Assembly: GCA_030407315.1 (NCBI GenBank)
Contig: JALQPE010000504.1
Coordinates: 78,480-142,479, forward strand
Direction of reading: 5' to 3'
DNA: 64,000 nt
Source: Asparagopsis taxiformis
Taxonomy: Eukaryota > Rhodophyta > Florideophyceae > Bonnemaisoniales > Bonnemaisoniaceae
The notes beneath the pieces are model-generated. The model worked only from the letters and a program-made list of their open reading frames with translations, ran no database searches and had not been told where the DNA came from. Positions 803 to 53,373 of the stretch are shown piece after piece (position 1 is the stretch's first letter; every line of letters begins with the position of its first letter). The translations under genes and the position numbers were made by a program.

Positions 803-1906
803 CTAGCTGTCGGAAAATTGTTCTTCCTCTTCTTCCTCGCTATAACTAGAGTCTCCTTGCACAGGCTCTATCGGCAGCCGTGGAGTTGAAGTTCTCCTGA
901 TGTTCTCTTCAGCCGTTGAGGGATTTTTCTTTCTCACCCGAAGGAGTCCGAGCTGCCCTGTCCTCGGCCCACTATCTTTCTTCACCGGGATGGGAACAAC
1001 CGTCTTGTGGCGAACATTGACAGGTGCCGGTTGACTTTGCCTGGCAGACCGGCGCGGAGCATTGGGTACTACTCCTTCTTCGAATCCCAACCGCCTGATG
1101 AAACCAAACGAAACATTGTTGGGAATCGGATACGACGCATTCCTGAAATACGTGTGATACCTCGTTGTCGTATGTGACACAACTCTGTCGACATGCCCTG
1201 CCCCGGCGTGTTGTACATGGCCGTGACCGATGAAGACTGAACGTGGCGGAACGAATACCTTCTTCAGCTTCATCGTCTTGGCGTACATATCTAATTCCAG
1301 CGCTTTGGAAAAGACGAACTTGTGAGACCCTGGACACACCCAGATAGGGAATGGGTCATCTCCGCTGGCAATAGCAAAGTAACCCGGAAGTTGATCTTTG
1401 CGCTTGCGAGGAGGAACAGGGAAATCATTGTGTGGGACCTGCCGAGGACAGCCCTTTCCCGTTATCAGAAACCGTCCCCCAGATGCCGGCATGACAAGTT
1501 TTTCTCCCGGCAAGCCGCAATCTTCCAGCCCTATCGGATAGACGTGATCGATTTCGAATAGCACACGAGCCCGATGTTCTTCCGGAATATGCAGCCCCTC
1601 GAACACAGAGTCCATTTCCACTTTCTTCAAATATCTCACCTCCCTGCCCGCTTCATCGATTTCCACACTCTCCAGTAACAACCTGAGCTCAATCGGGGGC
1701 AGACAGCCAACCCTCACCGACGCGATGATGTCCGCAGGACGCTGCGCCAGATGATGCCCTTCGGCTTCGAGTGTGCCTTCGAAATCTTCAGGAAGAGATG
1801 GCATACGGTCGTCGAACAGGAGGTCGTCTTCAGAAGGAGAGTCACGAACGATGTAACCGTCTTCATCGACTTCGACTCCTTCCGGAACAGTGAGTGTAAT
1901 TGTCAC
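803..1906 (-). CDS. 2OG-Fe(II) dioxygenase domain protein
   Basis: The 367-residue frame carries the signature of the 2-oxoglutarate/Fe(II) dioxygenase fold. There is an H-x-D pair in PHNDF (residues 159-161), then GYFAIASG, a PGSH turn near 192-195, a second histidine in GHVQHAGAGH (about 233) and a downstream arginine in RYHTYF (249). Such enzymes hydroxylate proteins, small molecules or modified bases. The substrate cannot be read from sequence. The N-terminus is acidic and the C-terminus ends in a polyglutamate stretch. The frame opens with GTG, and its first ATG is at residue 35 (1804). It overlaps the stop codon of the charged ORF upstream, and a single added G in the five-G run at 1915-1919 (minus strand) would join the two. 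It is therefore probably the C-terminal domain of a larger protein. Locus D (38540-53373) has a relative with the same motif order. Confidence 0.7.
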   Translation of the reverse strand: MTITLTVPEGVEVDEDGYIVRDSPSEDDLLFDDRMPSLPEDFEGTLEAEGHHLAQRPADIIASVRVGCLPPIELRLLLESVEIDEAGREVRYLKKVEMDSVFEGLHIPEEHRARVLFEIDHVYPIGLEDCGLPGEKLVMPASGGRFLITGKGCPRQVPHNDFPVPPRKRKDQLPGYFAIASGDDPFPIWVCPGSHKFVFSKALELDMYAKTMKLKKVFVPPRSVFIGHGHVQHAGAGHVDRVVSHTTTRYHTYFRNASYPIPNNVSFGFIRRLGFEEGVVPNAPRRSARQSQPAPVNVRHKTVVPIPVKKDSGPRTGQLGLLRVRKKNPSTAEENIRRTSTPRLPIEPVQGDSSYSEEEEEEQFSDS

Positions 1907-2712
1907 TTCGCGGACCCCCTTGCTTTCGACTTGGCCCTCGTCTGCACCCTGTTTGTCTTCCTCGTCCGAAGCGGTATGGACAGATTCTTGGTTGGAGGGA
2001 GTCGCGCCAGCACCTTGGTTTTGTTGGGGGACAATCGAAAGGGCAGAAGGGGGGAATCGGCATCACGCTCATCACCGGAACCAGTGGCTTGTGGTTGCTC
2101 GGTGGGTTGACCAACCGCGGCCGGCTGTTCTTCCTCGGTGGGTTCTGCTACCACGATTGGGTCTTCTTGCTCAGGGTGTGTGCTTCCCTTCGAGCGATTT
2201 CGCTGTGAACGGCGGATGCCACGCGAAGCAGACTCATGATCGATGTTTCGGTGCTTCTTGTGGGTGAGTCTCACATTGGCAGCAGAAGGGTGGCGTTTGC
2301 GTCGAGTCTTAGTCTTCTTCCTCAATGTCGGATTGAAAAACTCTTTCAAATTCGTTTCCATCACAGTGGCTTGTTGTTGATCGGTGGGTTTATCAACAAC
2401 GGCCTGCTCTTCTTCCCCGGCGGATTGTTGTACCACAACCGGCTCTTCTTCCTCGAGGCGTGTGCTCCCCGTCGAGCGAAGTCGCTGTGAACGGCGGCGG
2501 ATGCCATGCGAAGCAGGCTCATGTTCGACATTCCGCTGCTTCTTGTGAGTGAGTCTCACATTGGCAGCAGAAGGGCGGCGTTTGCGTCGAGCCTTAGTCT
2601 TCTTATTCAATGTTGGATTGAAAAAATCTTTCAAGTTTGTTTCCAAATCCTGTAAACGTGTGGTTCTCCGTCTCATTCGAACCTCACTGCTCCGGTCGTC
2701 CCCTCTATACAT
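1903..2712 (-). CDS. charged tandem-repeat protein or linker region
   Basis: This is a 269-residue, very basic and acidic, low-complexity frame. It contains two tandem copies of a unit of about 90 residues, each beginning TNLK(D/E)FFNPTL, followed by RRKR, PSAANVRLTHKK and GIRR. Between the units are glutamate- and glutamine-rich spacers. No enzyme domain is visible. The composition suits a nuclear, DNA-binding or disordered linker. The 5' end overlaps the ParB-like frame by 40 bases and the 3' end overlaps the dioxygenase frame by 4. A single extra base at each junction (runs at 2700-2703 and 1915-1919) would fuse all three frames, so this may be the linker of one long protein and not a gene of its own. 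Confidence 0.55.
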   Translation of the reverse strand: MYRGDDRSSEVRMRRRTTRLQDLETNLKDFFNPTLNKKTKARRKRRPSAANVRLTHKKQRNVEHEPASHGIRRRSQRLRSTGSTRLEEEEPVVVQQSAGEEEQAVVDKPTDQQQATVMETNLKEFFNPTLRKKTKTRRKRHPSAANVRLTHKKHRNIDHESASRGIRRSQRNRSKGSTHPEQEDPIVVAEPTEEEQPAAVGQPTEQPQATGSGDERDADSPLLPFRLSPNKTKVLARLPPTKNLSIPLRTRKTNRVQTRAKSKARGSAK

Positions 2713-4505
2713 TGCAATGGCATTGGTGAGATGTCATTGCAACTCCTTCGGCTGCTTAACCGACCCAATTGCATCTCTGTGCTCAGAAATGACTTGCGCA
2801 TAATACTCTTTGGGCGCCCATACGCAGCGTACAGAGAATTTGCTATTGCAGTCACGCGACGGACGTATGTATAGAAGTCGTTCACGTCAAAGCGTCCATC
2901 CGGACGTCCACCATGAGCAGGGTTCAAGTACTCCGAAAGACCACGCAAGACGAAGACAAAGTTTTCTTCCAGCAACTCGCGCACTATCTTGTGGTCCAGG
3001 TGCGTTATCCCAATCTCGTTGCGGCGCTCGGAATTGTTCAGCTCACGCAACACTTCGTCGAGAATAGGATGCTTCAGCGTTGCTATAGCCAAACGCGTCC
3101 ACCGCCGGGCCGTGTTCGTTGAATTCATCATCCCCATGAACTGCGCCTCGAACAATGTTCGGATGACATCAGACTCACGCAAGTCGCCAGCGTTTTCCAC
3201 GTTATTTGCAACAGCAATCGTACGGATGAACTGCTGGATGGACGACAAGATTCGAACCAGGGAGCGCTCCGTCAGTTGCGTCCCAGTCGTATGGTTCGAC
3301 TCTGCACTCTTGTGGATGATCTCATGAGGCTGAAGATCACTGTCGTCCTTGCGGCGAAGGTAGTACACATCCAGAGGCTGAGTAACCCAGCGCAAGCGGT
3401 TTGCGTCCTGTGGCAGCTTGGTTCTGTGCATACGGGTAAGGCGCGTGAAGTCGTCGGCAATGATATGCATAGCATTGAGACGATGCAGTCCGTCGATCAC
3501 GGTCACGTTCGCATTGGCATGGAATTTGCCATTCTGGAACAGACGCGTGTCGGCGGGCAGATGCGTGTTCTGCGACCTCAGCACCGTCACAGTGATACGC
3601 GAAGAGCTCACATACCCCACAGCCAACATATTGTTGCGCAGGTCCTCCACGTGGTCTTCTTTCACATCCCGAAGGGTCACGGCCGGTTCCACTAGCTGCC
3701 TCACCAACACAGTCGCTCCTTCTCCGACGTAATCCGACGTCACAAACTTGGGCACCGTAATTTGCGTCCCCTGCTGCTCACGAATGCTTTCCGCCACCTC
3801 CGGTTCGTCGTCCACCTCGGTTACGTCCTGCGTAGTAGCTTCGGTGACGTTGGAGCGAGCAGGGTGCTTCGTGCCTCCACTGGAGGCTCTAGCAGAGCGA
3901 GCAGGGTGCTTCGTGCCTCCACTGGAGGCTCTGGCAGAGCGAGCAGGGCGCTTCGTGCCTCCCGAAACCGGGACGGAGCGTGCTGGATGCTTCGTACCCC
4001 CCGAACCAGTGATTTCGCCTGCTGGACCGGTACTGGGCATCCGTCCCGAGCTGGCCTGGTTCGTCGCTGCGTTGAAGTTTGACGCTGCAGCAGGGGTACG
4101 AATGTCGCTAGGGCCATCCTCCGCAGCGGGGCGCATCATCCGAGTATCCCAAGGGTAAAACGCCGCAGCGTATGCTCTACCCATCGTCTCCGGCGGTCCC
4201 TCGGCGCCATCAAACATGTACGGGAACGGGAGGTCCTTGAACTTGTCCTTAGTCGCAATGTTGCGCACGACGATGTAGTCGGCCTCCTCGGTTTCCGGCA
4301 GCTTGTGGTTGTGCAGCGTGCGCGGAAGGCCAACATCGCCACCAGCAGTGCTCACAGAAGCCGTCCCAATATGCACAGCCGCACCGTCCACGTCCGCAAA
4401 CAAATTGACATCGACGCCGCGCTTGAGTCCGCGCGACTCCGCTGACGCGCTCACTTTATCGCCGCAAACCGTTGAAAACAAACTGCTGAAATGCGTATCC
4501 GCCAT
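2673..4505 (-). CDS. ParB-like domain protein (locus 1)
   Basis: This is a 610-residue protein counted from the ATG at 4505, chosen for its ACCATGG context and pyrimidine-rich leader. The frame stays open upstream to about 4787 but without a convincing start. The ParB/sulfiredoxin-fold core is at about residues 290-345: TLRDVKEDHVEDLRNNM, then VTVIDGLHRLNAM, which matches the family pattern (I/L)xDGxHRxxA. Helical sequence follows. The N-terminal region has a PFPY...GPPET...PWDTRMMRP motif, shared with the C-terminus of the methyltransferase at 28021-29847. Between them lies a four-fold SGGTKHPARS-type repeat. In bacteria and phages ParB domains bind DNA and use CTP, and are often joined to DNA methylases. 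Here the downstream partner is a 2OG dioxygenase. Function is inferred from the fold only. Confidence 0.65.
   Translation of the reverse strand: MADTHFSSLFSTVCGDKVSASAESRGLKRGVDVNLFADVDGAAVHIGTASVSTAGGDVGLPRTLHNHKLPETEEADYIVVRNIATKDKFKDLPFPYMFDGAEGPPETMGRAYAAAFYPWDTRMMRPAAEDGPSDIRTPAAASNFNAATNQASSGRMPSTGPAGEITGSGGTKHPARSVPVSGGTKRPARSARASSGGTKHPARSARASSGGTKHPARSNVTEATTQDVTEVDDEPEVAESIREQQGTQITVPKFVTSDYVGEGATVLVRQLVEPAVTLRDVKEDHVEDLRNNMLAVGYVSSSRITVTVLRSQNTHLPADTRLFQNGKFHANANVTVIDGLHRLNAMHIIADDFTRLTRMHRTKLPQDANRLRWVTQPLDVYYLRRKDDSDLQPHEIIHKSAESNHTTGTQLTERSLVRILSSIQQFIRTIAVANNVENAGDLRESDVIRTLFEAQFMGMMNSTNTARRWTRLAIATLKHPILDEVLRELNNSERRNEIGITHLDHKIVRELLEENFVFVLRGLSEYLNPAHGGRPDGRFDVNDFYTYVRRVTAIANSLYAAYGRPKSIMRKSFLSTEMQLGRLSSRRSCNDISPMPLQCIEGTTGAVRFE
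3850..4015 (-). repeat. 51-bp coding minisatellite
   Basis: Three to four tandem copies of a unit of about 51 bp encode the repeated peptide SGGTKHPARS in the ParB-like protein. Copies are nearly identical for the first two and diverge at the third and fourth, which points to recent slippage or unequal exchange. Confidence 0.8.
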
Positions 4506-4833
4506 GGTTGTTGAGTTGGAAAGGAAAAGAGATGGTTGACGTTGACGTATTGGAGTGATGTGGATGGTAGGTTTCACGCTGCGTTGAAGAATGGTCGTGA
4601 ACGCCAATCGCTGGAAATAATAATACAATACAACCGAAATTTTGTTAGGTACACACCTATCGTGACCGCTGGAATGCAAGAGAGGCAATCGAGATGTGAA
4701 TGTCCGTTCGGGCTCTCGAAACCTGACGAGGTGGCGTGAAGCAGGCAGTGTCTTTGATGTGTAATTCGTTGCAATTACAGCTGTCAAGCAAGGCGGCTTT
4801 TGGGGCGGCTGCGAGCACCCCTATGTCCGGAAG

Positions 4834-7169: not shown

Positions 7170-8734
7170 ATGGAATCTCAGCGTCGTGAGGAAAATCCAA
7201 ATGACTGCCTAGCAGGGATTATTCGAGAGGGATTCAGGACAGTGACTGGGGAAGTTCGTCGTATTGGGGAGAGGATGGATGAAATCGACGATGATCGAAC
7301 GTCCCAACGCCAGCAAATCGAAAAGCTGATGAGTCGCGTCGAGTTTATAGTAACGGAATTACAGGGTGTGAAAGACATCTGGGATGGTTTATTACAGCAG
7401 AGTCAGGGCACTTCGAAGAAGGGGATGACTGACAAGGACAGGGACCGGTTGCGCATCTCGCAGTCAGCAGAACTATCGTTTTCTTACAATTTTCTGTGTG
7501 CAGTATTCGGAACTGTTGTACCTTTGCTGGTCGAAAAGATTGATGCTGGGGCGACAATTTACACCAACCAAGGAATCTACGACCTCCGTGGGTGCAGGTT
7601 GCTCTCTGCAATGATGTTTGCGAAGCAGAGCAATGACAAGAGAGATGTGTCCCAATCCAACACCGGGAAGAACAACATCGAGCTTCGATTCCAAGTGGTG
7701 ATGTCTCTCTTGCGGAACATTCAGAAGGAAAAGTCGGGTACAGGCCGTACAGTGGAAGGCTCGAGCTCTGGACGCGGTTCGAATGCGTTCAACGTCTGGA
7801 AGGAGAACAAGTACATTCCGGACAAAATAATCGAAGAAGTTGTTTATGGTGTTTATGGTGTTTATGGTGCCTTGTTTATGGTGTTTATGGTGCCACTGGC
7901 GATGGCCGAAACCAGCCTGCAGGAAGCATTGACGGAGGGGCTAGGAAGCGGAGGAAAACAGATGGAAATGGTGGACAGTTGAGCAAGCGTGAAATATCTT
8001 TGGCTGTTACGAAAGTTGCGCTGACAAAGGTGCTCGGTTTCCTGAACAAGTCTAGAGAGCAGGTGCGCCATCGATTCCTTGTCGAACTGGGGTTCGCTCT
8101 AGTGTTGGAAACGGACGCCTCTATCACTTTCGAGTTTCCAACTCACGATCTCATTCGAGATATGGACGTTATCCCCGATACCCGTGTGACCAACGGAAAT
8201 CTAAGGCCTGAGGAACGGAAAGTTGTGGATGACAAGAATTCCGAGATCTTGATACAATTCATCGCTGAGCGGAAAGAGATGGTTGTCATCATTCAGTACG
8301 AAGTCGAGATATCGGGATGTGTGGCCAAAAGGATGATTCGAAGGAGAATCAATATCCTGGAGGTAGCCCTGAACACTGCAATTGCTTTCCTTCAATGCAC
8401 GAGTAGAACGGTTTTCCTGCGACGTTCCTGCAATTCACTCAGATTTGTCCATGCAATCGCTTCCGGGATTCTAAGAATTTTCAAGGTACAATCAGGTCAG
8501 ACCTTCGAAGAAAGTGTACAGGACGAGCTCAAACAGTTAGGAAAGGCGATTTTGCCGAGTGAGCGAATCTATAAGAGGCATCTCTGCGAAGATGTACTGA
8601 CAATTACTAACGAAAAATTCGATGAACAACACTTAGAACAGCGTAGTACCGCGTTTGAGGAGGATAGCGGACATGGAAATGAAGAAGATGGGAGTGAAAG
8701 CTACGTTGAAGTTTTCCTTGATGAGGAAGATTGA
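7170..8734 (+). pseudogene. module A ORF1, frameshifted
   Basis: Two frames (7170-7982 and 7979-8734) together match the single 500-residue ORF1 of module B along their length. Shared blocks are KDRDRLRISQSAE, QSNDKRDVSQSN.GKNNIELR, VTK.ALT...GFLNKSREQVRHRF, DDKN..IL..FIA.RKEM, RRINILEVALN and FLRRSCNSLRF. The break lies in a run of a 9-base GTTTATGGT-type repeat at about 7846-7896, where slippage moved the frame. The second part opens with TTG, so it is not an independent gene. The N-terminus is predicted coiled-coil and helical. The family is not recognised. I see no transposase catalytic triad. The gene is convergent with ORF2. Confidence 0.7.
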
Positions 8735-9456: not shown

Positions 9457-10755
9457 CTAGCTCGCTGCAGATGGTTTGTCCACTGAAAAGCATGCTGGGA
9501 GGTTCAAGTATGCAGTTCCCAACACAACATTCTTGAGAACGCGCTCGAAAGTTCCATATGGACGAGGGCCTTGAACAGGTTTCCAGGTCAGTGAGAACGA
9601 GTTGGCCAGTTTGAAATTTTTGCTGTCCGGCAGCTCAAAGTTCTCCTGCATTTCTCGACTTGAGAGGACGCGAGCTTCCAAAGGATACGAATAGCTGCAA
9701 TTGACATAGTCGTATTCATCAGATTCTCGAGTAAGAACGACAGTACTACTCATGTTTTCAGATCTCCTGTATAAAGAGGAACCAACAAGAACAGCCTTTG
9801 TAGATGGAATAGAATCTTCTGAAGCACTGTCTGCTAGAGTTCCCAAAACTCTAATGACAGAAGACCCAGAATCGTGTCGTGTTTTCTTCCACTTGAGGAT
9901 AGTAGAGTTCGTGCATGTAGACATGGAAGGAGGTAAAGTATTGCAGAGGTCATAGTATGTTCCAAAGTGGATCGATAGCTCTTTATCTCTCCCAGTTGAA
10001 ATTCGAACCGCCTCGACGCTCGGCAGGAAAATTGTGTTTGGGTTGTTCTTCTCTTCACATAGCCGGGAAAGTTGTAAAAACTGTTCAAGCGAGCAATCTG
10101 CTCTTGCCGTCACATAGTCTTGCACCAAGGAGCTCACTTCCCGGCCTGTTTCAGACTTCGTGATTTTGGAGGACAGGGGTTTGTCCAGTTTTAAGCCAAC
10201 TCTCTGGAACAGGTAGTCGCACACAATGTTTCCGAAGATGGGTCCAGTAGCGCTTGATGAACCGCGACAGTTGAGAATCTTCCTTTCGAGGTAGGATACC
10301 TTTTGAAACAGCTTGGATATGTCCTCATAGATGTTAGGACCAGGAGGACTCTCATTGCAAACTAAGCGCGGCTCGGACTTGGATCGACTCAACATGTTTT
10401 GTTTGCAGTCTTTTTTATGGAAACTGTCTTCACCCGCAGACGAGATCGTCTGCTCTAGTGCTAGTTGCTCTCCAAACCTCCAACGTAGCATGTTTCCAGA
10501 GTCAATGTCCAGCAGCGAATTGTTCTTGAATAATTTTGCTGTAGAGATTGACTGGTCGAAACCGTGTTCAGATTGATATTGCAGCGTAACAAACAAGTTT
10601 CCAGTCAAACGATGTTCTCCGGACGCGTCCGGCTTGGCAGTACTCAAAACTTTGGCGCCCCACCAAACCTTTTTCTGTTTCCTTCCTCTCGTTCGTAAAC
10701 TCCATTCTACTTCAATGACTGATCCTTCGGAGACAAAGTCTGTTGGGTCTTGCAT
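9457..10755 (-). CDS. module A ORF2, Tudor-like N-terminus
   Basis: This intact 432-residue frame starts at an ATG and is homologous over its whole length to module B ORF2 (18629-19987). The N-terminus reads VIEVEWSLRTRGRK...VWWGAKV...YQSEHGFD, a small beta-barrel pattern like Tudor, PWWP or chromo-barrel domains that read chromatin. The central region (DKPLSSKITKSE, ARADCSLEQF, SSVIRVLGTL) is conserved but unrecognised. The C-terminus has TRESDEYDYVN and FSLTWKPVQGPRPYGTFE, which faintly recalls the WD...MRP motif of the ParB and methyltransferase proteins. It is divergent from the ParB gene at 11487, with about 730 bp between, so a shared promoter region is likely. It is still open although ORF1 and ParB in the same copy are broken. 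Confidence 0.6.
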   Translation of the reverse strand: MQDPTDFVSEGSVIEVEWSLRTRGRKQKKVWWGAKVLSTAKPDASGEHRLTGNLFVTLQYQSEHGFDQSISTAKLFKNNSLLDIDSGNMLRWRFGEQLALEQTISSAGEDSFHKKDCKQNMLSRSKSEPRLVCNESPPGPNIYEDISKLFQKVSYLERKILNCRGSSSATGPIFGNIVCDYLFQRVGLKLDKPLSSKITKSETGREVSSLVQDYVTARADCSLEQFLQLSRLCEEKNNPNTIFLPSVEAVRISTGRDKELSIHFGTYYDLCNTLPPSMSTCTNSTILKWKKTRHDSGSSVIRVLGTLADSASEDSIPSTKAVLVGSSLYRRSENMSSTVVLTRESDEYDYVNCSYSYPLEARVLSSREMQENFELPDSKNFKLANSFSLTWKPVQGPRPYGTFERVLKNVVLGTAYLNLPACFSVDKPSAAS

Positions 10756-15916: not shown

Positions 15917-15930
15917 CACTACGGTGTTGA

Positions 15931-29847: not shown

Positions 29848-29865
29848 CGCTGCGCATGTGTATTC

Positions 29866-35130: not shown

Positions 35131-35139
35131 TCCAAACTC

Positions 35140-39788: not shown

Positions 39789-39793
39789 TTACG
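39789..39793. repeat. Gypsy target site duplication, left copy
   Basis: TTACG directly precedes the first base of the LTR (TGTAGTAGG) and reappears directly after the other LTR at 51886-51890. Confidence 0.9.
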
Positions 39794-40453: not shown

Positions 40454-40466
40454 TCGCCCCCTCCTA
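40454..40466 (-). promoter_or_regulatory. polypurine tract
   Basis: On the minus strand TAGGAGGGGGCGA lies directly upstream of the 3' LTR start (TGTCATACC), the expected place for plus-strand priming. Confidence 0.75.
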
Positions 40467-43900: not shown

Positions 43901-44133
43901 TGTCCGATGAGTTGGTCACTAATTCTCCGACGGTATCGGTTCCTTCAGTCCCTGCTGTGCCTCATCATCGCCCACCGGCTCGTTTAACCACTTCCCGTCG
44001 GGATGCTGGACGCATTCGTCCTCGCGACACTCGTCGTTCTACGGCTCAACATCCGACCAACCGGTCATTGAGGCCAACCTCTTCCTACCCTTCGCATCAG
44101 CGCCCCCGTCCCTCCGACAACTTCCGACGTTAG
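40930..44133 (+). CDS. antisense ORF of the Gypsy element
   Basis: This is a 1067-residue intact frame on the strand opposite gag-pol, between pol and the downstream LTR. Residues 1-270 are proline/serine/threonine-rich and disordered. Residues about 290-590 form a more ordered region (WRREGEFYPS, LPFSRYLRAPWEYYPFARLPLREFL, CDRTFLLHPGDALYVERMNRRLF). Residues 853-920 form a coiled coil (ERRDAAVTRYRAERTSRRLA.., LEELRTRVRELEEELRLARR). The tail is basic. No catalytic domain is recognised. Antisense ORFs at this place are known from some plant Gypsy lineages (Tat group). Its ATG is at 40930. The long open frame in a recent copy suggests it is functional. Confidence 0.75.
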   Translation: MVDRINSPTGNMPTRSTRAASRRQTTRHQASRAPSTPTPATPTTNPSASAAGVPASSSQPPDSGSQAKPSTGTVQEKAKTPSPAHRPPSPSPEVTPRKDNPGKPVVLPSVVPPPSDPHPEVEEVEVQRDTPRSPPTDKQGTPQPSRRTPEPAEIIVDAAAASQPSSTPVTSAAPAVTGRPIVPRPSEYPDPYAKPRSSTRNPVTAEPVKSKNPYEDLYSRNRQFIIDARNRKAAEEAGRGLVASNSTRAAYGSGGYETVQPQGRQGQLVVPYQKPAPAVTAAPTYSSPKRVPAPSADWRREGEFYPSNASELMVFDSHELPFSRYLRAPWEYYPFARLPLREFLSEDVTDLRRDLRLMAGVKHRDTHALHNSWSAYAQLPSCRPMRHFRVPHTLLCDRTFLLHPGDALYVERMNRRLFESHSDQGSVPDLPIVRSRWFAYPPRPDTGMLEHHMRVHARHLTRSTGLQVSSLDYRVFGYRANRNIDHRTANLVVPTAELNSTLEDSRWEGENSPPLCLPIGDTPAMLYFHSVVEADPRPWVKPRFLDYVLLERELMMGLELARLVETRGFLPVLAKHLAESAITTWKTFHEMPLSPVVPKTRSVDVKVIIELLEASYKTTDGVEEIACTIEGVAPEKIFLYSHPSLPFKPAKAAAYTTRDGIVVETPPFRRDGEFAEDGYLTVDPPSYSDGDLEDYMYKPEREMHVPRPGRSTPAGHYRPADSGVSPHPTAPVEPASYEAMEPPAVVPPPAPLDLSHATRPGPPASTAAPFLSPDRQSGQSLEDDGAVGRATARADVLGSSLSAAQLLSVTNVRQLAETLGDGQLSSVFHPQDGGYPVRNALDTLALTCVTLGTRYKESRERRDAAVTRYRAERTSRRLAEEKVSQLEKDLTARQKTFEELRTRVRELEEELRLARRRIPHERGRDTTQALETPASIQPRGGISGRRRDRSPAERDDGRNVRPRRASPVNTTPPLLQRIEAQDPVREESPDMSDELVTNSPTVSVPSVPAVPHHRPPARLTTSRRDAGRIRPRDTRRSTAQHPTNRSLRPTSSYPSHQRPRPSDNFRR

Positions 44134-44464
44134 ACGTCTTACTTCCGTAACCGGGTTTACCTTCTTATACGCATTTGCGTTTCACTCACATGTTAGATCG
44201 TTCATCCATGCGCCGTGTGCGGCTTTGTCATGTCTCCCATTAAAATTTGGAATGTTTTTGTTGTTTTTATGGAATTTTTCGTCCGCCGATTGGCTTCATA
44301 TTTCTACCGCTCGCGGTTTTTGTTATTTGGCCAACCCGACGGGTGCTGTTCGCGGGGTCTTACCGGCTCAACCTTGTGGTCATTAGCGGTGACGCCGCGA
44401 TCACTAGCCGTTCCTACTGACGCTCTTGCGTACAACAGCTTCGCTGTGGGGCAGCTCTGCCGTT
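44134..44464. other. gap between convergent antisense ORF and pol
   Basis: About 330 bp hold both 3' ends. No gene or hairpin is evident. Confidence 0.5.
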
Positions 44465-47400
44465 CTACTTACCACGCCTTTTGGCCGTTCGTCGTTTAGA
44501 CGTTTTCTTACCCGCTTGGCGGTCAACTTTCCGGAAGTACCGAGATATTTGCTCGTCTGGCACGTTGTGCCGTTGCGTCCACGTAGGGTCACGGTACCCG
44601 TACCACTTCACGAGGAACCATTCCTCCTGATCGTCGTCGACGACATAATCGATCAAATCGTCTATGGCGAATTCCTGTTCCTCAGGTGGTTCCAGGTTCT
44701 GGGAGACAGTTCCCGGTTCGGGTATAACCTCTTGGCTCGACGAGCGTCGTCTGCTTCCGGTGTTGTCCGTGTCACCCGCAGGGTTTATCGGCTCAGCCGA
44801 AGTGGCTTCTTGGGATATTTCCATGCCGTGTGGTCCGCTTATTCTTGTTTGTCGACGAGAGCGACTATTCTTCTTCGGACTTGTTCCGGTTGGTGCCTTA
44901 TGGGTTGATCGGCGAAGCCGGGAGAACGTCTTGTTGGCGTCTTGGGAAGCAGGTTCCTGCATTGTGTCAAGAGTTTCATCCTCGGCGAGGTCAATTTGAG
45001 TGGGCATTGGCTGTGAAGCAGCATTGTTATTACGACGTATGTCAGCCTGGGCCCCCTCCTCAAAGACGGTTCGTCTCGGACCGATACTCGGTGTGTTAGT
45101 TACGGAATTACCTTCAACCGCGGGGCGGGATGACAAAGGCTTGGTTACAGGGTGACCTGGGGGTTGTCCGGTGTGAAGAGGTACGCGCTGCGGACCTGAT
45201 GTCTCGCGACGTAGTCGTTCTTCCGCCATTGTCGGCACCGTGTTGGCGGCTTGATCGTCGGTTCTTGCCGCAGGTACGGGTGCTCCGTTAGAAGTTAACC
45301 GTGAGTGCGGTATTTCCTGTTCAGGTTGTGGCGCATACGTCACGCGGTCGTGGCTAACTTGTTCGACAAGTCCATCACGTTCAATATGGACGGTACGCCT
45401 ACCGGCTTTAGCAACCTTAAAAGGTCCTTGCGCCAGTGGCGTCAACTTGTTTCGTTCCCGTACTTCGGGGTTGTCAAGGTAGACGTAATCACCCTCCTGA
45501 AGGAGTCGTTTGGTCTTCCGGATCCTTCGGTCAAAGTCCCGTTTATAACGCGCTTGCGTGGCTTGTAGCCGTTGACCGGACTTCTCAATCGCGTGAGCAA
45601 TCCGTTGCAGGAAATCCTGTTTCAAGAAAGCGTCCGGTTTTTGCCGTGATCTCGTCGAGTGATGAAGGGAGTAGGGTGGTGGGGGTCGACTTAGGATAAG
45701 GTCAAAGGGTGTCGTCCCTGTCGTGCGATGCACGTGCGTATTATACGCGTAAGTCAACGCTGGTGCGTACACATCCCAGTCATTCTGGTTCTCATTTACG
45801 TAGTTGCGTAACATGTTCAACAACGTACGGTTATACCGTTCTACCTGACCGTTGGTCTGAGGGTGGTAGGTTGTTGTGAACAAGTTCTTTGTTCCAAGTT
45901 GCAGGCAAACAGCCTGAAAAAGTTTGGAAGCAAACTGAGGTCCGTTATCGGAGAGCAACGTCCTAGGGGGACCGTACTTGAAAACCCAGTGGGTGCAAAA
46001 GGCAACAGCCACATGGTAAGCAGTGATACTGCGTAATGGTACAACCTGAGTAAGCTTCGTGAAGCGACAGGTAATTACTAAAAGGTGAAGGTTACCCTTC
46101 TTTGTTTTAGGCAACGGGCCTAATAAGTCTATAGAGACTTCTTCCAGCGGTGCTGAAGCTGGGAATAGTTTCAATGTGTTTGCGTGTCTACGCAACTTGA
46201 GGCGGTTCTTGGCGCAAGCCTGACAACGTTCAACCGTAGCGGTTATATCCGCGGCCATGGCAGGCCAATAATACGAGAGACGCATGGTCTCATACATACG
46301 GTTTTGTCCGGGGTGACCCGCGAGTACGTCGTGATGACACATCTTCAACAGGCGGGGCCTGAGTGCTCTTGGTACCACCACTTGGTGGGAATTGTCAAGG
46401 GTGGATTTACGTCGCAAGACACCTTTGTCATCTTCGAAGAAGACAGTGTCAGACTTCTGACTTGTCAATACTTGTTGACAAAAGTCATCAGAGCGTTGCT
46501 CCTCAATCCACTCGTTGAGTGTTATCGGTTCGGAACCCTCTGTCTGAGGGTGTGTCGTTAGGACAGCTGGGTTTATTCCCGTTAGGGATTTGTCAGTGTA
46601 ATTCCGCGCGATGAGCACATCAAAGAACCAAGGGTTCATCTCTTCTGTAACAGATACTTCCTGGGTAAGGTCATACGCGAAGAGCGTGGGAATTTCGTCA
46701 TCCACCGGATGTGGGTCTAACCCTTCTGTTTCAACACGCGATAACGCGTCTGGTACTTGGTGAACCCTACCGGGGCGATAGACTATGGTGTAGTCAAACT
46801 CTGAAAGGCGGAGTCGCCAACGGCAAAGGCGCCCGGATGGGTCGGTGATGTTCATCAACCAACGCAACGCGTTATGATCGGATCGTACCACAAACTTTGT
46901 TTGCTCAAGGTATGGTCTGAGGGTAGTGACTGCCCATACTACAGCGAGACACTCGCGCTCTGTCGGAGAATATCCCCGTTCGGGTTTGGTTAAGGTCCGC
47001 GACCAGTATCCTACAGGACGATAGTCGTCGTCATCCTGCTGTTGCAACAGCGCACACCCTATCTGATACGCAGAAGCGTCCGTGTCTACGATGTAGGGTT
47101 TACCCACTCTTGGCAGAGCCAATATTGGTGGTTGCACCAAGGATTCCTTGAGTTGTTCAAACGCGTGGCGTTGTTCCTCTGTTGGAGGCATTGAACCGAA
47201 GCTCGGTAGGTTTTCCTTAGTCAACATCGCGTTGAGGGGGTGGGAGATATCCGCGTACCCCTTCACGAAACGGCGGAAGACCCCGCAGCTCCCGAGGAAA
47301 GAACGCATTTGCGTAGGTGTGGTCGGAAAAGTTGCTTTCGCAATAGCGTCCGTTGCCGTTTGGGCGACCGCTAGCTTACCTGGCATAACCACATGTCCAA

Positions 47401-49162
47401 GGTAATCTACCTTCGCTTCGAAGAAGTGGCACTTGGCTAGTTTTAGGGTTACCCCTGCCTTCCTCAACAGTGTGAGTACCTGATCCACCTGATGAAGGTG
47501 TTCTTCCTCACTCCGTGAGAAGACGATGACGTCGTCAAGATAGATGAGACAAGTTTGCCAGCGTACGCTGCTTAAGATAATATCGATAGCACGTTGGAAC
47601 GTGGCGGGCGCATTCTTCAGCCCGAAGGGCAATCGTTTAAATCGATATGTTCCAAGGTGCGACGTAAAGGCCGTCTTATCCCGATCCTCGGAGGCAACGG
47701 GAATCTGCCAATAGCCCGAGTTACAGTCGAGCGTGGTGAACACGCGTGCATCTCCTAAGGAGTCTATACAATCGTCCATACGAGGCAACGGATAAGCGTC
47801 CGATATTGCGATGTCGTTGAGACGGCGGTAGTCAACGCAAAAGCGTAGCTTACCATCCTTCTTGGGTACCAAGACAACTGGGCTAGCCCACTCAGAATTC
47901 GAGGGTTCGATGACCCCTTTCTCTAGCATGGAGATGATCTCCTTACTTGCTAGCTCCCTTCTCAAGGGTCCCATCCGGTATGGTTGCTGTCGACGAGGTC
48001 GACTTCCTTCGATTACATCGATCCGATGCTCGGTTGCTTTAATGTCTCCAAGAGACCCGTCCCACATGGACTCATGCTGCGATAGCATCGCTATAATTTT
48101 CTCCTTCAACTGCGGTTGCTGAAGGTGTTCCAAGGATACATCCTCCCGCCATTGCGGATTCTCTTTCTCCTTGGTTCCCGTCGCCGGGTTGGTCAGACTG
48201 ATGATACGGTCTGTACCGGAAGTGGATAACTCACTGGGGAGCTTTCGATCGGCTGTGCCGGGTGCTCGATGAGCAATACCAACAACCGTCCCCTTCGGGA
48301 GGTATCTCTCTGCTGACCCAAAATTCGTTAGAATAACAGTGAAGACTGTTCGAGGAATGATTTCTGCAATGCCGTTCGGCATTGAGATCCGCTGTCGGTG
48401 GAAAAGTTTTCCCTTCGCCTCGAGGAGGCTTAGTCCGCCCCCAGCACAGACCACCGATGCGGTTACTTGACTCATGGGGGGAAGGGTGATTTTTCTTGCT
48501 AGCCGGATCCTGTTGGACTGGTGGTCCAAGTCAGTACCCTGCGAAGGGCTTGAATCATGTATATAGCAAGAAGAAGAGTTGTTCATTTTACTCACATTCT
48601 GCATAAGCAGTATGGCTATCGAGCCACCATCATACACATCAATGCGCTGAGCGCGGCATCGAATTGCCTCTACATGCGAGTTCATGATACCTGTTCCCAG
48701 GATAACTGGTACTGCCAGCTTAGGGGCTACAAAGAATTCTGCGTCCAGAAGCTTTCGGCCTAGCTGTATTAGCAGCTTGATTCTTCCCGTTATCCTGAGA
48801 GGATTACCATTGGCGTCTGCCAGTTGAGGGATATTCCCGGTCTGCGCGGCATAGGCCTTCCATCCCTTTGGTAAGGTTGATTCCTGGACGACCGAAGGAC
48901 CGGAACCGGTGTCCATAACCATACGCATGGGCGTTAGAAGTGTCTCGGAAATTCCGATCGAACCTAAAACCACGTAGTGGGCTGCCTTCAAGAGACATGC
49001 AGCCTTTGGCTGAGAGGGGAGGGGATAAGGGGTATCCCCGGTTGGTGTCTGGGTAGGACGGTTCAACCGATTTGGTTTCTTCGTTCCACCCTGTGGAGAT
49101 GTGGATGGTGAGATGTCCACCCTACAGCGAAGCTGTTCCACCTCCTGGCGGGAGCGCGACAC
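44465..49162 (-). CDS. pol: Gypsy Pol polyprotein with chromodomain
   Basis: The frame of 1565 residues has domains in standard Ty3/Gypsy order. Protease: MVMDTGSG (about 81-88). Reverse transcriptase: FCVDYRRLND, YWQIPVASEDRDKTAF, LPFGLKNAPATFQ and the active site YLDD (about 538). RNase H: VDTDASAYQIGCALLQ. Integrase: zinc motif HDVLAGHPGQ...RCQACAK (about 945-985), DLLGPLPKTKKG, SDNGPQF, QTNGQVERYN. A C-terminal chromodomain LVKWYGYRDPTWTQR (about 1510-1525) would steer integration to modified histones. The frame begins at GTG and has no ATG upstream of protease. It is in the -1 frame relative to gag and is continuous across the gag stop, so frameshifting near GAAAAC (49180-49185) is likely. 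Confidence 0.95.
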   Translation of the reverse strand: MSRSRQEVEQLRCRVDISPSTSPQGGTKKPNRLNRPTQTPTGDTPYPLPSQPKAACLLKAAHYVVLGSIGISETLLTPMRMVMDTGSGPSVVQESTLPKGWKAYAAQTGNIPQLADANGNPLRITGRIKLLIQLGRKLLDAEFFVAPKLAVPVILGTGIMNSHVEAIRCRAQRIDVYDGGSIAILLMQNVSKMNNSSSCYIHDSSPSQGTDLDHQSNRIRLARKITLPPMSQVTASVVCAGGGLSLLEAKGKLFHRQRISMPNGIAEIIPRTVFTVILTNFGSAERYLPKGTVVGIAHRAPGTADRKLPSELSTSGTDRIISLTNPATGTKEKENPQWREDVSLEHLQQPQLKEKIIAMLSQHESMWDGSLGDIKATEHRIDVIEGSRPRRQQPYRMGPLRRELASKEIISMLEKGVIEPSNSEWASPVVLVPKKDGKLRFCVDYRRLNDIAISDAYPLPRMDDCIDSLGDARVFTTLDCNSGYWQIPVASEDRDKTAFTSHLGTYRFKRLPFGLKNAPATFQRAIDIILSSVRWQTCLIYLDDVIVFSRSEEEHLHQVDQVLTLLRKAGVTLKLAKCHFFEAKVDYLGHVVMPGKLAVAQTATDAIAKATFPTTPTQMRSFLGSCGVFRRFVKGYADISHPLNAMLTKENLPSFGSMPPTEEQRHAFEQLKESLVQPPILALPRVGKPYIVDTDASAYQIGCALLQQQDDDDYRPVGYWSRTLTKPERGYSPTERECLAVVWAVTTLRPYLEQTKFVVRSDHNALRWLMNITDPSGRLCRWRLRLSEFDYTIVYRPGRVHQVPDALSRVETEGLDPHPVDDEIPTLFAYDLTQEVSVTEEMNPWFFDVLIARNYTDKSLTGINPAVLTTHPQTEGSEPITLNEWIEEQRSDDFCQQVLTSQKSDTVFFEDDKGVLRRKSTLDNSHQVVVPRALRPRLLKMCHHDVLAGHPGQNRMYETMRLSYYWPAMAADITATVERCQACAKNRLKLRRHANTLKLFPASAPLEEVSIDLLGPLPKTKKGNLHLLVITCRFTKLTQVVPLRSITAYHVAVAFCTHWVFKYGPPRTLLSDNGPQFASKLFQAVCLQLGTKNLFTTTYHPQTNGQVERYNRTLLNMLRNYVNENQNDWDVYAPALTYAYNTHVHRTTGTTPFDLILSRPPPPYSLHHSTRSRQKPDAFLKQDFLQRIAHAIEKSGQRLQATQARYKRDFDRRIRKTKRLLQEGDYVYLDNPEVRERNKLTPLAQGPFKVAKAGRRTVHIERDGLVEQVSHDRVTYAPQPEQEIPHSRLTSNGAPVPAARTDDQAANTVPTMAEERLRRETSGPQRVPLHTGQPPGHPVTKPLSSRPAVEGNSVTNTPSIGPRRTVFEEGAQADIRRNNNAASQPMPTQIDLAEDETLDTMQEPASQDANKTFSRLRRSTHKAPTGTSPKKNSRSRRQTRISGPHGMEISQEATSAEPINPAGDTDNTGSRRRSSSQEVIPEPGTVSQNLEPPEEQEFAIDDLIDYVVDDDQEEWFLVKWYGYRDPTWTQRHNVPDEQISRYFRKVDRQAGKKTSKRRTAKRRGK

Positions 49163-49176
49163 CTCACTCCCCCCGG

Positions 49177-51108
49177 TTAGTTTTCCGACGAAGTGTCGGA
49201 CGTTTCATCTGAAGATGCTAGAGCATCAACTGCGGTTTCTTCCGAACGAGAAGGACCAATACTCCGTTGCAATCCGGAAGCCAGATTTGTTTGTTCAACG
49301 ACGTTGTCGTCCTCGGCAAACGCGACCATTCGCGGAAACGGTTTCTGCCGTTGGAGAACTGTTTTAGCAGGGACCTGCTTCTTCTTGAACTTGTCGAATT
49401 GCCGTTGCTGGCGGCGCATGACTTGTTCCGGCTCTTGCTGGTATGCATAGTTCGCGAAAGCGAAATACATTCCCACGGAACGGGAGAGGTACGGGCATGT
49501 GTACAGCACGTGACCGGGTTGCCGGCATCCGGAGCAGCGCCAATTGACCGCTCCCTTCGGGATCATGGATTCGGCAAGACTCACATGTTCCTCTGTGAGG
49601 GGCGGTACCTCCATCGGCGGTGTCTCCGCGTTCGGTCCCACGGTCAGTGGTTGTAACGTCTGCGACGTAGACATTTCTCTCCTCATTCCGAGGTCTTCAT
49701 TAGCCATGGTAGCTAATAACGCTTTGCGTTTCCTCTCGGCAAGCTCCCTACTAGGGTACATCTTGGGCTTAGCCGTGTCGGCTGTGGTGGCTCTTAAGGA
49801 GTCTCCGAGTCCTTTAGCCAAATTGCGTACCGCAAGGAATTCTTCGCCGTCTCGGCCAACAGTCACCTTAACGGTGTCTTTTACCCCCGGGCGTAGCCCT
49901 TTGAGGTAGTAGTTTACCAAGTCTCTCTCAGAGAAAACATTAGCACACAACAGTGCGGCCTCTTGCAGTCTATCGGCGTATTCTGCCTCATCTTCGTGAG
50001 GTTCTTGTTTAATACGCGTGACCGCGTCGTAGGCGTCAGCCAAAACTGTATCCGTTGCATAACGAGAAAGTAAAGCATGGACGGCCTGTGGCCAAGTTAT
50101 CTGCTGGTGCAGTTGATTTAGCAACTTCCTTTTCCGAGATTCGGACGCGATGAATCGTTGCGCATCTCCTTCAAGGAAATAACGTAGCAACTTTGTTGCT
50201 ATTCCTTCTGATACTCCGCAGGAGTCACAAGCATCTTGGTACTCCGCAAGGAATCGAAGTATATCGATGGGTTGCGTTCCATCGAACGGCGTCAAGGACG
50301 CATTGAAGTTCCGGATCTTTTCCGTTATCTTGTAGAGACTTCTACTCTTTCCGTTCGGAGCTTCTGTCGATGACGACTTGTCTTGTAACCGGTAATACCG
50401 GTAGGATACTACACAATCGAACGCGGGTTCGCGGGCTCTTAAAGGAGTTAAGCCTGGTTCCAAGGGTCCTTCTTCTGTTTCGAATGGATTCGAAGGTGAA
50501 TCGAACCCGAAAACTGGGTCACTCATGTTGGGATTTGTACTTGGTACCGGACGGGCGAGAGACTCGCTGAGTAAATCCACTCGATCCGACAAACGTCTGG
50601 TGACGTCAACGACCTTGTCGAGCTTCTCGGCTTCCACAGCTACGCTGTTCTCGGCAGTGCCGTCTTGTTGATTCCACAGCCCTTGGTGCTGATGATCGGA
50701 AGAAGAACTAGCGTAGCTTCTCCTTTGTAGGTCGGTGACCTTCTTCTCAAGCCGGATAACCCGTTGTAGAAAATCCACACGGATAGACTTCCACGTCCCC
50801 GAGAAGACTTCTACTTCTTTCTCATCTACCACTTCGTGGCAAATGGCTTTCAGCTTGGGTGCAAGCAAATCAATCGTGTGATCCACGAGAGTTGAGACGA
50901 GATCGCCGTGTCTATCATCGTCGAGGGTGTCCTCAACGGCTTGGCTGACCTCGTCGCGCATCTCTTTCAATTTATCATTGAGAATCTTGTCTGCATGTTC
51001 ATGCATAAGTCGGAAGACTCCTTCCTCAGTGACGAATTCTTCGTTTGAACCTCCCCCGATAGGGCCTGACTCGGAGTCAGAATGTTCCGGAGACTTGTCC
51101 GATGGCAT
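49177..51108 (-). CDS. gag: Gypsy Gag protein
   Basis: This is 643 residues from the ATG at 51108. The N-terminal third is acidic and helical with a coiled coil (SIRVDFLQRVIRLEKKVTDLQ). The capsid-like core reads TPFDGTQPIDILRFLAEYQDACD, LLRYFLEGDAQRF, ALLSRYATDTVLADAYDAVTRIKQEPHEDEAEYADRLQEAA, YYLKGLRPGVKD, the retrotransposon gag pattern. A single zinc knuckle CSGCRQPGHVLYTC is at about 525-540. It ends at TAA (49177-49179), overlapping the -1 pol frame. Forms the particle and packages element RNA. Confidence 0.9.
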   Translation of the reverse strand: MPSDKSPEHSDSESGPIGGGSNEEFVTEEGVFRLMHEHADKILNDKLKEMRDEVSQAVEDTLDDDRHGDLVSTLVDHTIDLLAPKLKAICHEVVDEKEVEVFSGTWKSIRVDFLQRVIRLEKKVTDLQRRSYASSSSDHQHQGLWNQQDGTAENSVAVEAEKLDKVVDVTRRLSDRVDLLSESLARPVPSTNPNMSDPVFGFDSPSNPFETEEGPLEPGLTPLRAREPAFDCVVSYRYYRLQDKSSSTEAPNGKSRSLYKITEKIRNFNASLTPFDGTQPIDILRFLAEYQDACDSCGVSEGIATKLLRYFLEGDAQRFIASESRKRKLLNQLHQQITWPQAVHALLSRYATDTVLADAYDAVTRIKQEPHEDEAEYADRLQEAALLCANVFSERDLVNYYLKGLRPGVKDTVKVTVGRDGEEFLAVRNLAKGLGDSLRATTADTAKPKMYPSRELAERKRKALLATMANEDLGMRREMSTSQTLQPLTVGPNAETPPMEVPPLTEEHVSLAESMIPKGAVNWRCSGCRQPGHVLYTCPYLSRSVGMYFAFANYAYQQEPEQVMRRQQRQFDKFKKKQVPAKTVLQRQKPFPRMVAFAEDDNVVEQTNLASGLQRSIGPSRSEETAVDALASSDETSDTSSEN

Positions 51109-51205
51109 CACTTCTACTCTTGCTCAATGAGCTCACGTCTCACGACGAGTTTACTCTTCTTGAGTGGTTTCGGTGTGTCGCCGGTCGGCTAAGATGTCGG
51201 TAAGA

Positions 51206-51223
51206 TTCTAGGTCGAGAGACCA
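51206..51223 (-). promoter_or_regulatory. Gypsy primer-binding site
   Basis: One base after the 5' LTR end the minus strand reads TGGTCTCTCGACCTAGAA. It starts with TGG, the complement of a tRNA CCA end, as expected. The matching tRNA is not identified here. Confidence 0.7.
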
Positions 51224-51224
51224 A

Positions 51225-51885
51225 TGTAGTAGGTAGAAAATCCGCAAAGCGGCAAAACCACCCTACAGGTGTCCCGAGTTTCGGTAGCGTGGTAGAGCAA
51301 GCGAATCTTGCGTCAACCGCCAATGGCGAGTATACCACGAATGGTCTTCCGGTAATGCCGGGCGAAGGTTGGGGGGTGCTCACGCACGGAGTGCGTATTG
51401 ATGGAGCAGAGAGACGTAACCCGTCGAGCTGTATAGCTAAAGCTAATTCGTCCTAGAAGGATAGAAAAGAGCGATGCAAACACTGTTCAGTGGAGTCGTA
51501 AATTCCACGTGAGTTTACGTTACCTCTAAAAGGTTAAGCACTCTGGCTAATCCAGAGGCGTTTTATACTAGTCTAAGTTACTGTAAACAGTTAGGGTAGG
51601 TAGACAGTTAGGAATAAATATCCTTATGTGCACCAATCAGGTCCCTGATTATGGCGACTGCGGAAGCCCGCGAGATCACCAACTGTTAGTGTTACAGTGT
51701 AAAGTTAGCTGAGTCAGCTTAGTTAAAATTTGCCCCTTGTGGGGTCTTTAATTGTCCCAGTGGGTCCATTCCCTTGACTTGGGCGAGATACAGCGAGGCT
51801 GTTTCTATTGGCCAGTCCCGACCCGGGGTCATCCAATAGGATGTTGACACGACCCCACCAGGGCAGACCACCGCGTGGTATGACA
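51225..51885. repeat. Gypsy LTR, right copy (5' LTR of the minus-strand element)
   Basis: This 661-bp LTR is 99.7 percent identical to 39794-40453 and one base longer in a G run at about 51370. It drives the minus-strand gag-pol transcript. Adjoining TTACG at 51886-51890 is the second target duplication. Confidence 0.95.
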
Positions 51886-51890
51886 TTACG
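51886..51890. repeat. Gypsy target site duplication, right copy
   Basis: TTACG adjoins the outer end of the right LTR and matches 39789-39793. Confidence 0.9.
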
Positions 51891-53373
51891 CTTCCCGAGG
51901 ATGGAGTTTTCACCCGCATCCTCGGGGGCGCTCTCCAACTCGACGACCTCCACAGCACCACCCGCCGTTCCACCACGACCGGAAGGACTCGCTTGCAGGC
52001 GGGTACTCCTTCTGGGCATCACTTTCCTCCCAGAAGTTTCCACTCCGGGCGGTGCAGAATCACTGACTTCGATAACATCCCCGTCAGGATCTGCACCGCC
52101 CTTCGCACTGCTGCCCTCGACCACATTCTCGGGAGTAGGGCCCTCCGTCGAAATCCTCGCAACCGTCTTCTGTCCAACCCCACCGGATGGTGAAGGGACG
52201 AAACTGTCATCGCTGGAGCTTCCCGAACTGCTAGCAGATGCAGAACGGGAAGCTTCGACAGCGGGGGCCGGAGCAGCAGGGTGCTGCTCGGCAGCCGGAG
52301 TCGCAGGCTCAGGCTGCAAAGCCGGTGAGACCTGCTCCTGCGCGGCTTGGACAGGACGGTTGGGGGTACCAGTCCCGGCGTGGGAAACTGGACCAGACTG
52401 TTCACTGCCAGCCTGGGGACCACGCGCAGTCGGCTTGACCGGGGTCACCGCAGGGGAGGATGCAGACACGGCAGGGTAGTGAGAGGAAGAGGGGCAGCCT
52501 CAGAATCGCTGGAAGATTCCAGTTGAGGTGGTGGGGGCAAAGGAATGGAGGATGAAGGGATGGGCAAGGAATTGGAAGAGGAAGGGATGGGGGCATCATC
52601 ATCACATGTGGCTGGGAGCGCAGCATGTGGGATGTCTGGGTACATCGCGTGAAAGCGTTTCCGCATAATCATGTCGCGCTACCCAGTGACGCGCAGGAGC
52701 ATTTTCCTGGCGTCCTTCCCGAAGACAGACTTCTTACGGGGAAAAATGTTCTAGGACTTGTAACCATCGGGGGGGGGGCCTTTCTTGGGACGGAAGTCTG
52801 CCCAACACCCCTTCTTGGGGACCATCTGAGCAAGAACTTCGACAACGCGCGAGCGAATGTCGAAGCTCTTACTCGGGTCACCCACGCTGGGAATTGACCC
52901 ATCCAGCACCCGCAACACATCCGAAACTTTCCAGTACTCGGCCACCTCCTTCACGTACCCGAAGATTTCCAACAAACCAGCAATCCATTCCTGCCCAATG
53001 GTACCAACCGAGTACGTTTTCAGCCCGGCCGACCGACGGCTACAAGTGTAGCGCGCCGTCATCTCAAGGATGAAACACTTTTGCACGTCCGGCGCACTCC
53101 TGAACGACCCATTGAACAACAAGTTCACCGTACACCCAGCCAGATCCTCCGTCGAAGAAAACTGCACGAACTCCGGCCTGTTCGGAATACTCGACCAGTA
53201 CTTGAAAGCAGGGCTTTCAATGGTCTTGAAACCTTGGGCGATGGAGACGTAGCGCATGAGCTGTCTCGGAGCTGTCTCGGACGAATCCAGTTCAGCGCTT
53301 TCCGTTCTTTAATGTACTGAACGGTCGGCTCGATCTTCTTCTTTCCCAGGCGGTGGATATTGATGAACTCCAT
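51891..53373 (-). pseudogene. 2OG dioxygenase gene, 5' part (locus D), broken
   Basis: Upstream of the Gypsy the gene can be followed to an ATG at 53373 (GTGATGG context; MEFINIHRLGKKKIEPTVQ). An 11-bp tandem duplication at 53258-53279 shifts the frame. The next 169 residues (MRYVSIAQGFKTIESPAFKYW..., to 52751) form a folded-looking domain I do not recognise. A run of ten G at 52769-52778 (C on the coding strand) adds a second frame problem, and an intron with a GTAAGAAG donor (about 52743) is possible. The last part (52469-51891) is a proline/serine/alanine-rich linker that continues in frame, without the Gypsy, into the dioxygenase at 39788. The gene is therefore broken several times. Confidence 0.6.

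Follow-up and report, generated by a model that had tools for sequence, protein, structure and literature searches.

What kind of DNA joins ParB-like domains, of the bacterial partition type, to enzymes that modify DNA or chromatin, and what might such combinations do in a eukaryote? The question is raised by a stretch of 64,000 nucleotides (hereafter the window; C504:78480-142479) from the 141-Mb, 3,156-contig assembly of the red alga Asparagopsis taxiformis. When six-frame reading frames of at least 60 amino acids (aa) were scanned, the pattern [ILV]x?DGxHRxxA was found at exactly four sites in the window, at positions 3500 (−), 11709 (+), 20694 (+) and 30519 (−). Shuffling the frames in 1,000 rounds yielded eight pattern hits, equal to 0.008 expected per window. 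A chance origin of the four cores, which a preliminary description of the window had reported, is therefore rejected and the observation confirmed.

The window genes are pieces of large DNA transposons. Judging from the encoded sequences, at least two different elements, B and C, repeatedly join one ParB-like domain type to enzymes, and two more high-copy gene families, locus 1 and module A, for which no element ends were located, occur beside them. The window copies of the ParB and enzyme genes are broken, and many copies elsewhere in the genome are open and near-identical. Elements B and C are mobile, abundant and recent, and carry open writer and oxygenase fusions. We consider the chances about even that the ParB domains of these transposons recruit writers and oxidisers to the DNA of the element itself, for anti-silencing or self-marking. 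The Pfam families of the window (copia gag, Ty3/gypsy polyprotein, Plavaka transposase and DUF7869) place it in a transposon-rich eukaryotic genome. A single mobile-element family had been proposed; the mobile eukaryotic setting and the repeated linkage to enzymes hold, and the single family is rejected, since B and C differ in their ends, target duplication and transposase-type gene. Genome-wide copy figures given below are loci scored out of larger first-look candidate sets, not full totals, and may contain duplicated insertions or assembly duplicates, of which two copies on C1577 (see below) are an example.

Two transposons, one inserted in the other

Element B is a large DNA transposon of about 25-27 kb with inverted CACTACGGTGTTGA ends. 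Its left part lies at 15917-25098 (+), where it is interrupted, and the first 5.5 kb are 97.6-98.3% identical to three mapped copies. The left terminal sequence CACTACGGTGTTGA (15917-15930, +) matches the genomic end repeats: exact copies of this 14-mer occur 722 times in forward and 709 times in reverse orientation (1,431 altogether; control 0). Arrays of GACAGT accompany the ends: this hexamer is found 14 times within the leftmost 500 bp (C931) and 35 times within the rightmost 1,000 bp (C44), where 0.25 would be expected per 500 bp. Element B thus has inverted ends with subterminal repeats of the CACTA type, as in CACTA/EnSpm-Plavaka (CMCT) transposons, whose target duplications measure 2-3 bp. 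Among five inverted pairs, target duplications of 2 bp were found in two (C19 and C104; 14,444 bp each) and none in C64, C10 and C44; a 2-bp match arises by chance once in 16 cases, and some pairs may not be a single element. B ends are also frequently found as two copies in the same direction at a spacing of 6.47 kb (e.g. C65:26048/32517, C117:13964/20432 and C135:13454/19922), perhaps a fixed nested or derived element.

The ParB part of module B, which belongs to this element, was scored in 105 copies out of 1,391 candidates, and 76 of the 105 belong to frames 1,155 aa or more in length. Ten copies were fetched with their flanks, all on long contigs and pre-listed with full frames, and hence a biased choice. 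In eight of them, with different flanks, CACTACGGTGTTGA is the start of similarity, and the copy on C1813 has the same sequence and diverges from the others just inside. Since the two copies on C1577 have flanks in common over 10 kb, they represent one duplicated insertion or an assembly duplicate. The gene order begins with ORF1 (open reading frame 1; 16694-18328, +; 508 aa in 8 of the 10) and ORF2 (18629-19987, −; 453 aa in all ten). ORF3 follows with a ParB part (20499-21554, +; core ILDGAHRCMA at 20694), an N6_N4_Mtase part (21548-23191, +; PF01555 E 4.9e-15, motif TDPPF) and a SET part (23169-23966, +; PF00856 E 6.9e-7). It is a single ParB-methyltransferase-SET frame of 1,155 aa in each of the ten fetched copies, which hold five distinct sequences, 0-5 residues from the reference. 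A protein search scored the 8,000 candidates with the largest number of shared words; above its threshold it found P0001, which is ORF3 itself, and nothing else.

ORF4, which combines ParB with a dioxygenase, is present in pieces. Its dioxygenase part (38589-39793 within the frame 38540-39793, −) is 95-99% identical to B copies, and its linker with part of the ParB region (51886-53386, −) 95.6-96.3%; the DGSHR core of ORF4 was absent from the window copy in the pattern scan. The first of these segments had been described as an independent dioxygenase locus, locus D, which we reject: the two are one ORF4 gene, split because the 13,490-bp element C and a 12,092-bp Ty3/gypsy element were inserted. 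The latter (39794-51885, −; target duplication TTACG) lies inside ORF4 and holds a 1,067-aa frame antisense to its polyprotein (40930-44133, +; best Pfam E 0.071).

Further to the right, on C931, an ORF5 pair consists of a dioxygenase frame (L015:8609-9919) and another ParB in a different frame (L042:227-1795). At the right end, on C44, the same 14 bases occur inverted, followed by the arrays and then by a transposase-like frame. All 45 scored copies of this frame (of 2,019 candidates) are 100% identical, and 41 of them are 1,288 aa long. On C44, inverted ends separated by 27,188 bp enclose both ORF3 and the transposase-like frame; on C2162, C1547 and C1772 the two are likewise oriented towards each other, at a distance of about 18-19 kb. 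The map of element B is joined from the C931 and C44 pieces, with an estimated 0.6 kb or so between them outside the map. The transposase-like protein has no Pfam match at E≤10 and gave a weak collinear match to the Plavaka protein of the window (E 0.035, a single comparison); its GDYPA...CHIC resembles TNP2/Plavaka. Within 56400-61801, the Plavaka transposase itself (PF18759 E 1.6e-24) neighbours a 761-aa coiled-coil-like frame on the opposite strand; this is perhaps a further element.

Element C occupies 25099-38588 (−; 13,490 bp), with its terminal pattern at both ends in inverted orientation (25099-25128, + and 38559-38588, −). Element B breaks off at 25098 and continues from 38589, with four bases shared, so that element C is nested in B; the 4-bp target duplication is CTAT (25095-25098 on the left, 38589-38592 on the right). 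Genome-wide the terminal pattern was counted 55+44 times (control 0), and an end pair on C1701 spans 13,881 bp. The DUF7869 protein (25248-27623, −; PF25273 E 2.3e-48, 164.8 bits against a cut-off of 26) is the candidate transposase. It was scored in 57 copies of 1,107 candidates, and 49 of these are accompanied by a family C ParB at most 10 kb away, always on the same strand and upstream. Of 809 candidates for the family C ParB itself, 89 were scored and gave 92 matches; the pairing used 89 of these 92 rows, with the last three, short pieces, excluded. The DUF7869 protein had no match in phages, and no paper that ties DUF7869 to a transposon was found in the open-access literature searched. 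Frames at 32331-33199 (+) within element C look, by eye, like the N-terminus of DUF7869 and are perhaps remains of another copy.

In the window copy of element C, one in-frame stop separates the ParB-like part (29866-31305, −; core VVDGMHRLTA at 30519) from the N6_N4_Mtase part (28021-29865, −; PF01555 E 3.8e-12, motif TDPPY). Two ParB-linked amino-methyltransferases, one of them with a SET domain, had been described from the window, and the Pfam matches in elements B and C bear this out. For the locus C protein we found nine relatives, P0003 with 99% identity and eight others with 33-55%. P0003 probably comes from the same genome as the window. P0011 is without the ParB part, and the seven remaining diverged relatives keep the ParB core and the methyltransferase in one chain; in the alignment of the nine proteins, motif IV of the methyltransferase is present in all and the ParB core in eight. 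The expected linkage of these domains in related genomes is partly borne out by seven diverged proteins, some of which may come from the same species as the window: similar-length frames occur in the genome of the window, and some of P0004-P0011 may thus be families of it. Three of the nine proteins in alignment A4 (P0003-P0011) also matched DndB weakly (best E 0.0084); DndB is a protein family of DNA phosphorothioation.

Their length of 13-27 kb and the phage-like kinds of genes would also fit elements that are integrated or decayed DNA viruses. We regard this as extremely unlikely, given the target duplications, CACTA-type ends, terminal arrays and transposase-type genes. A capsid family was absent from the Pfam scans of the tested proteins, outside of which lie about 0.6 kb of B and some C frames, and viral contigs gave no close relative, with two phage contigs at 23% identity.

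ParB-like domains in several gene families

The ParB parts of modules A and B are 39% identical. In tblastn searches module A matched Leptospira phage ParB-like genes (E 5e-5 to 9e-5), and both modules matched the ParB-like family phrog_1033 (A, E 4e-5; B, E 0.0015). A joint A/B profile matched phage ParB-like proteins with a probability of 97.4; of two such phage proteins checked, ParB_N was sub-threshold in one (E 0.019) and HTH_ParB in both. In a search of the PDB with the same profile no ParB was found, and the best match was adenylate kinase (E 0.0073). For the other groups the probabilities ran from 27 to 86 depending on the comparison set; the best were 86.0 (family C), 82.4 (ORF4/ORF5/P0002) and 79.0 (locus 1), each above 100 of 100 column shuffles. 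Against the A/B profile alone the matches were weak (family C, 17.0; ORF4 group, 37.9), and family C against the locus 1 profile reached 26.7. From these comparisons, homology to ParB appears firm for modules A and B and moderate for locus 1, ORF4/ORF5/P0002 and family C. The ParB assignment made earlier stands in this graded form as sequence homology, and not as a match to Pfam ParB_N. In the ORF5 ParB, ANIQTHDVASVSIAD is kept after the core (by eye), resembling the ENxxR box of ParB. The sole Pfam ParB_N match reported in the genome, at C1526:7582-7839 (locus L001; 38.9 bits, 290-aa frame), may be a separate gene, an organelle sequence or a contaminant.

Locus 1 lies at the left of the window. 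Its ParB-like frame (2673-4787, −) has the core VIDGLHRLNA at 3500. It is followed by a linker frame taken from the ORF list (1903-2712, −), which is in another reading frame in the window copy, and by a 2OG (2-oxoglutarate)-dioxygenase-like frame (803-1906, −) that matches P0002 in BLASTP (E 3e-8) with HxD..H..R aligned. This last frame is without about 530 bp found in other copies. Genome-wide, 88 dioxygenase loci were scored of 3,933 candidates, and 56 of them lie in frames of 1,343-1,450 aa, which would be long enough to take in the neighbouring ParB and linker frames.

Module A consists of a ParB frame and its broken continuation (11487-12101 and 12111-13073, +), and 69 of 150 copies scored (of 846 candidates) belong to frames 1,171 aa or more in length. 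Within the window no recognised enzyme is linked to it. Frames at 7170-8734 (+) and 9457-10755 (−) resemble, by eye in their translations, ORF1 and ORF2 of element B; a search for inverted repeats around module A found no element ends.

The enzymes and their probable substrates

The two PF01555 matches score 56.5 and 47.1 bits against a cut-off of 26.7. DPPF or DPPY was present in all ten methyltransferase proteins scanned (P0001 and P0003-P0011), and a D.Y.GT-type motif I follows motif IV in alignment A4. PF01555 covers N4-cytosine methyltransferases as well. Since the DPPY/F motif is present and the closest characterised methyltransferases are adenine-specific, N6-adenine would be the likelier target than N4-cytosine. 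The SET domain (PF00856) scores 30.1 bits in the window frame and 27.6 bits in P0001, with a cut-off of 22.4; a PDB search with the SET part gave a best E of 0.047.

The dioxygenases rest on an HxD...H...R pattern aligned with P0002. This protein, which comes from a separate source though not necessarily another species, is 1,174 aa long and unites a DGGHR core with the same dioxygenase in a single chain. The HxD...H triad and the downstream R are invariant in all three aligned dioxygenase-like proteins. The dioxygenases claimed previously are supported by this pattern, and not by a Pfam family match: the ORF4 frame matched only the unrelated ANGEL2_N (E 0.29), and a PDB search with the dioxygenase profile gave a best E of 2.

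The closest architecture is a ParB-methyltransferase fusion in phage contigs (L057:1672-3006, by eye; phrog_67 methyltransferases), which has the same order from N-terminus to enzyme. It differs in its phage setting, in its length of 444 aa and in an identity of 23% over the methyltransferase. This fusion, together with the phage genes that are the relatives of the ParB parts, would suit a phage-type modification cargo that shields transposon DNA from host nucleases and has no chromatin role. We judge this improbable, as SET is a chromatin-type domain and restriction systems are uncommon in eukaryotes (PMC12730594).

In the genome, PF01555 yielded 2,605 first-look candidates, of which 150 were scored; these fall into several classes of frame length. 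Such copy number and several distinct methyltransferase frame classes could change a whole genome, and fungal TET/JBP enzymes may work untargeted (PMC12730594). Both points would agree with enzymes that work in trans, silencing or opening the chromatin of the host or of rival elements at large, with ParB as a general DNA-binding or spreading domain. This too seems distinctly unlikely to us, if slightly less so than the shielding cargo: the own ParB version of each family would fit self-recognition better, and a host-wide effect was not seen.

A further possibility is that methylation marks, instead of countering silencing, time or direct transposition or replication, a role that Dam methylation has for bacterial Tn10/IS10. 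The transposase would read the state of the terminal arrays and the oxygenase would reset it. The terminal arrays of element B adjoin the transposase-like gene, and the element has both a writer of adenine-methylase type and an oxygenase. Such a switch could do with fewer enzymes than several oxygenases and a SET domain, and a methylation site in the ends was not identified, so we hold this explanation to be rather unlikely.

Proposed self-marking by the elements and its weighing

The reading that we favour is that the elements target their own DNA. The N-terminal ParB-like domain would bind DNA, probably the terminal repeat arrays of the element, and the bound site would receive the catalytic domain of the same fusion. 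ORF3 of element B would thereby deliver an amino-methyltransferase and a SET domain, and element C an amino-methyltransferase; ORF4, the ORF5 pair and locus 1 would deliver oxygenases of the 2OG type. With an active-type mark written on the element and a repressive mark oxidised, its genes would stay on and the element would move. The sequences establish the ends, the order of the genes, the fusions, the copy numbers and near-identity, the nested insertion with its target duplication and the conserved motifs; DNA binding by the ParB-like domain and its site, the modified base or histone residue, catalysis and the benefit to the element are what we infer here. N6-methyladenine (6mA) is tied to active genes in many eukaryotes (PMC12695648), and self-written 6mA could therefore make the element look active. 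There is precedent for transposons that encode TET, SET or repeat-binding anti-silencing proteins (PMC12730594, PMC10398659).

Several results weigh against this proposal. ORF4 is whole (1,211-1,215 aa) in just three of the ten fetched copies, with the contig of one copy, C911, ending inside ORF4. Pfam ParB_N (PF02195) matches none of the ParB-like proteins of the elements and window that were scanned, and we therefore name them ParB-like and not members of Pfam ParB_N. At the site of NHxC, the catalytic motif of SET domains, the element has YLNDC (by eye), and SET writers often work in silencing. No Pfam match was obtained for the two dioxygenase-like genes of the window at E≤1 or for the ORF5 dioxygenase domain at E≤10, and the dioxygenase-like domains matched neither TET/JBP nor NCBIfam, a relevant PHROG or the PDB. 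A PF00145 candidate, i.e. a C5-DNA methyltransferase (C5-DNMT), was not found in the genome, in a search that detected its control in 10 of 14 genomes and saw genes exon by exon in an assembly that may be incomplete. The CpG observed/expected ratio is 0.73-1.12 over ten window segments and thus not depleted. Together with the missing C5-DNMT, this makes 5-methylcytosine (5mC) an unlikely substrate and 5mC or repeat-induced point mutation (RIP) an unlikely target; the oxygenases probably act on a substrate other than 5mC. Finally, the bdelloid methyltransferase N4CMT silences transposons, the opposite outcome (PMC8885841).

The self-marking proposal has a more far-reaching form, which we put forward only tentatively and consider unlikely as it stands. 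Bacterial ParB spreads from parS. A ParB clamp might likewise load at the terminal arrays, spread, and deliver DNA and histone methyltransferases together with oxygenases, which would create a private mobile chromatin domain and define a self-epigenetic class of transposons.

Known systems share single features with elements B and C. TET-plus DNA transposons of fungi (Plavaka and EnSpm types; Kojima 2025, PMC12730594) carry a DNA-base dioxygenase with a proposed role in silencing escape. The word ParB has no occurrence in the available text and no amino-methyltransferase fusion is described there; moreover, the dioxygenase of element B and locus 1 is without a TET/JBP family match. Oomycete HarbingerS and MuDR transposons (via PMC12730594) carry a SET histone-methyltransferase gene, whereas in element B, which has CACTA-type ends, the SET domain forms one protein with ParB and an amino-methyltransferase. 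The DNMT retrotransposons of dinoflagellates and charophytes (de Mendoza 2018, PMC5890265) are likewise mobile elements with their own DNA methyltransferase, which is a C5-DNMT, in contrast to the N6/N4 type in the DNA transposons B and C. VANC of VANDAL transposons (Sasaki 2023, PMC10398659) is an element protein that binds the noncoding tandem repeats of its transposon family and erases silent marks; with no enzyme fusion described, it is likened to the element B and C proteins by function and not by homology. The bdelloid N4CMT (Rodriguez 2022, PMC8885841) is a bacterial-type amino-methyltransferase in a eukaryote, tied to chromatin and transposons. It is, however, a host gene that aids transposon silencing and has a chromodomain in place of ParB and SET.

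Transposons with single epigenetic enzymes (TET, SET or C5-DNMT) are thus already known. For ParB-linked enzymes in eukaryotic transposons we found no precedent in the open-access literature searched, with most subscription papers outside it. What distinguishes the present case is that one bacterial-partition-type domain has been joined repeatedly to three enzyme types, in at least two elements and in many recent copies. If the enzymes work, the elements would represent a natural kit of targeted writers and oxidisers. They would also allow a test of whether 6mA or N4-methylcytosine (4mC) serves selfish DNA in eukaryotes, and would mark a path by which phage-type modification genes may enter chromatin.

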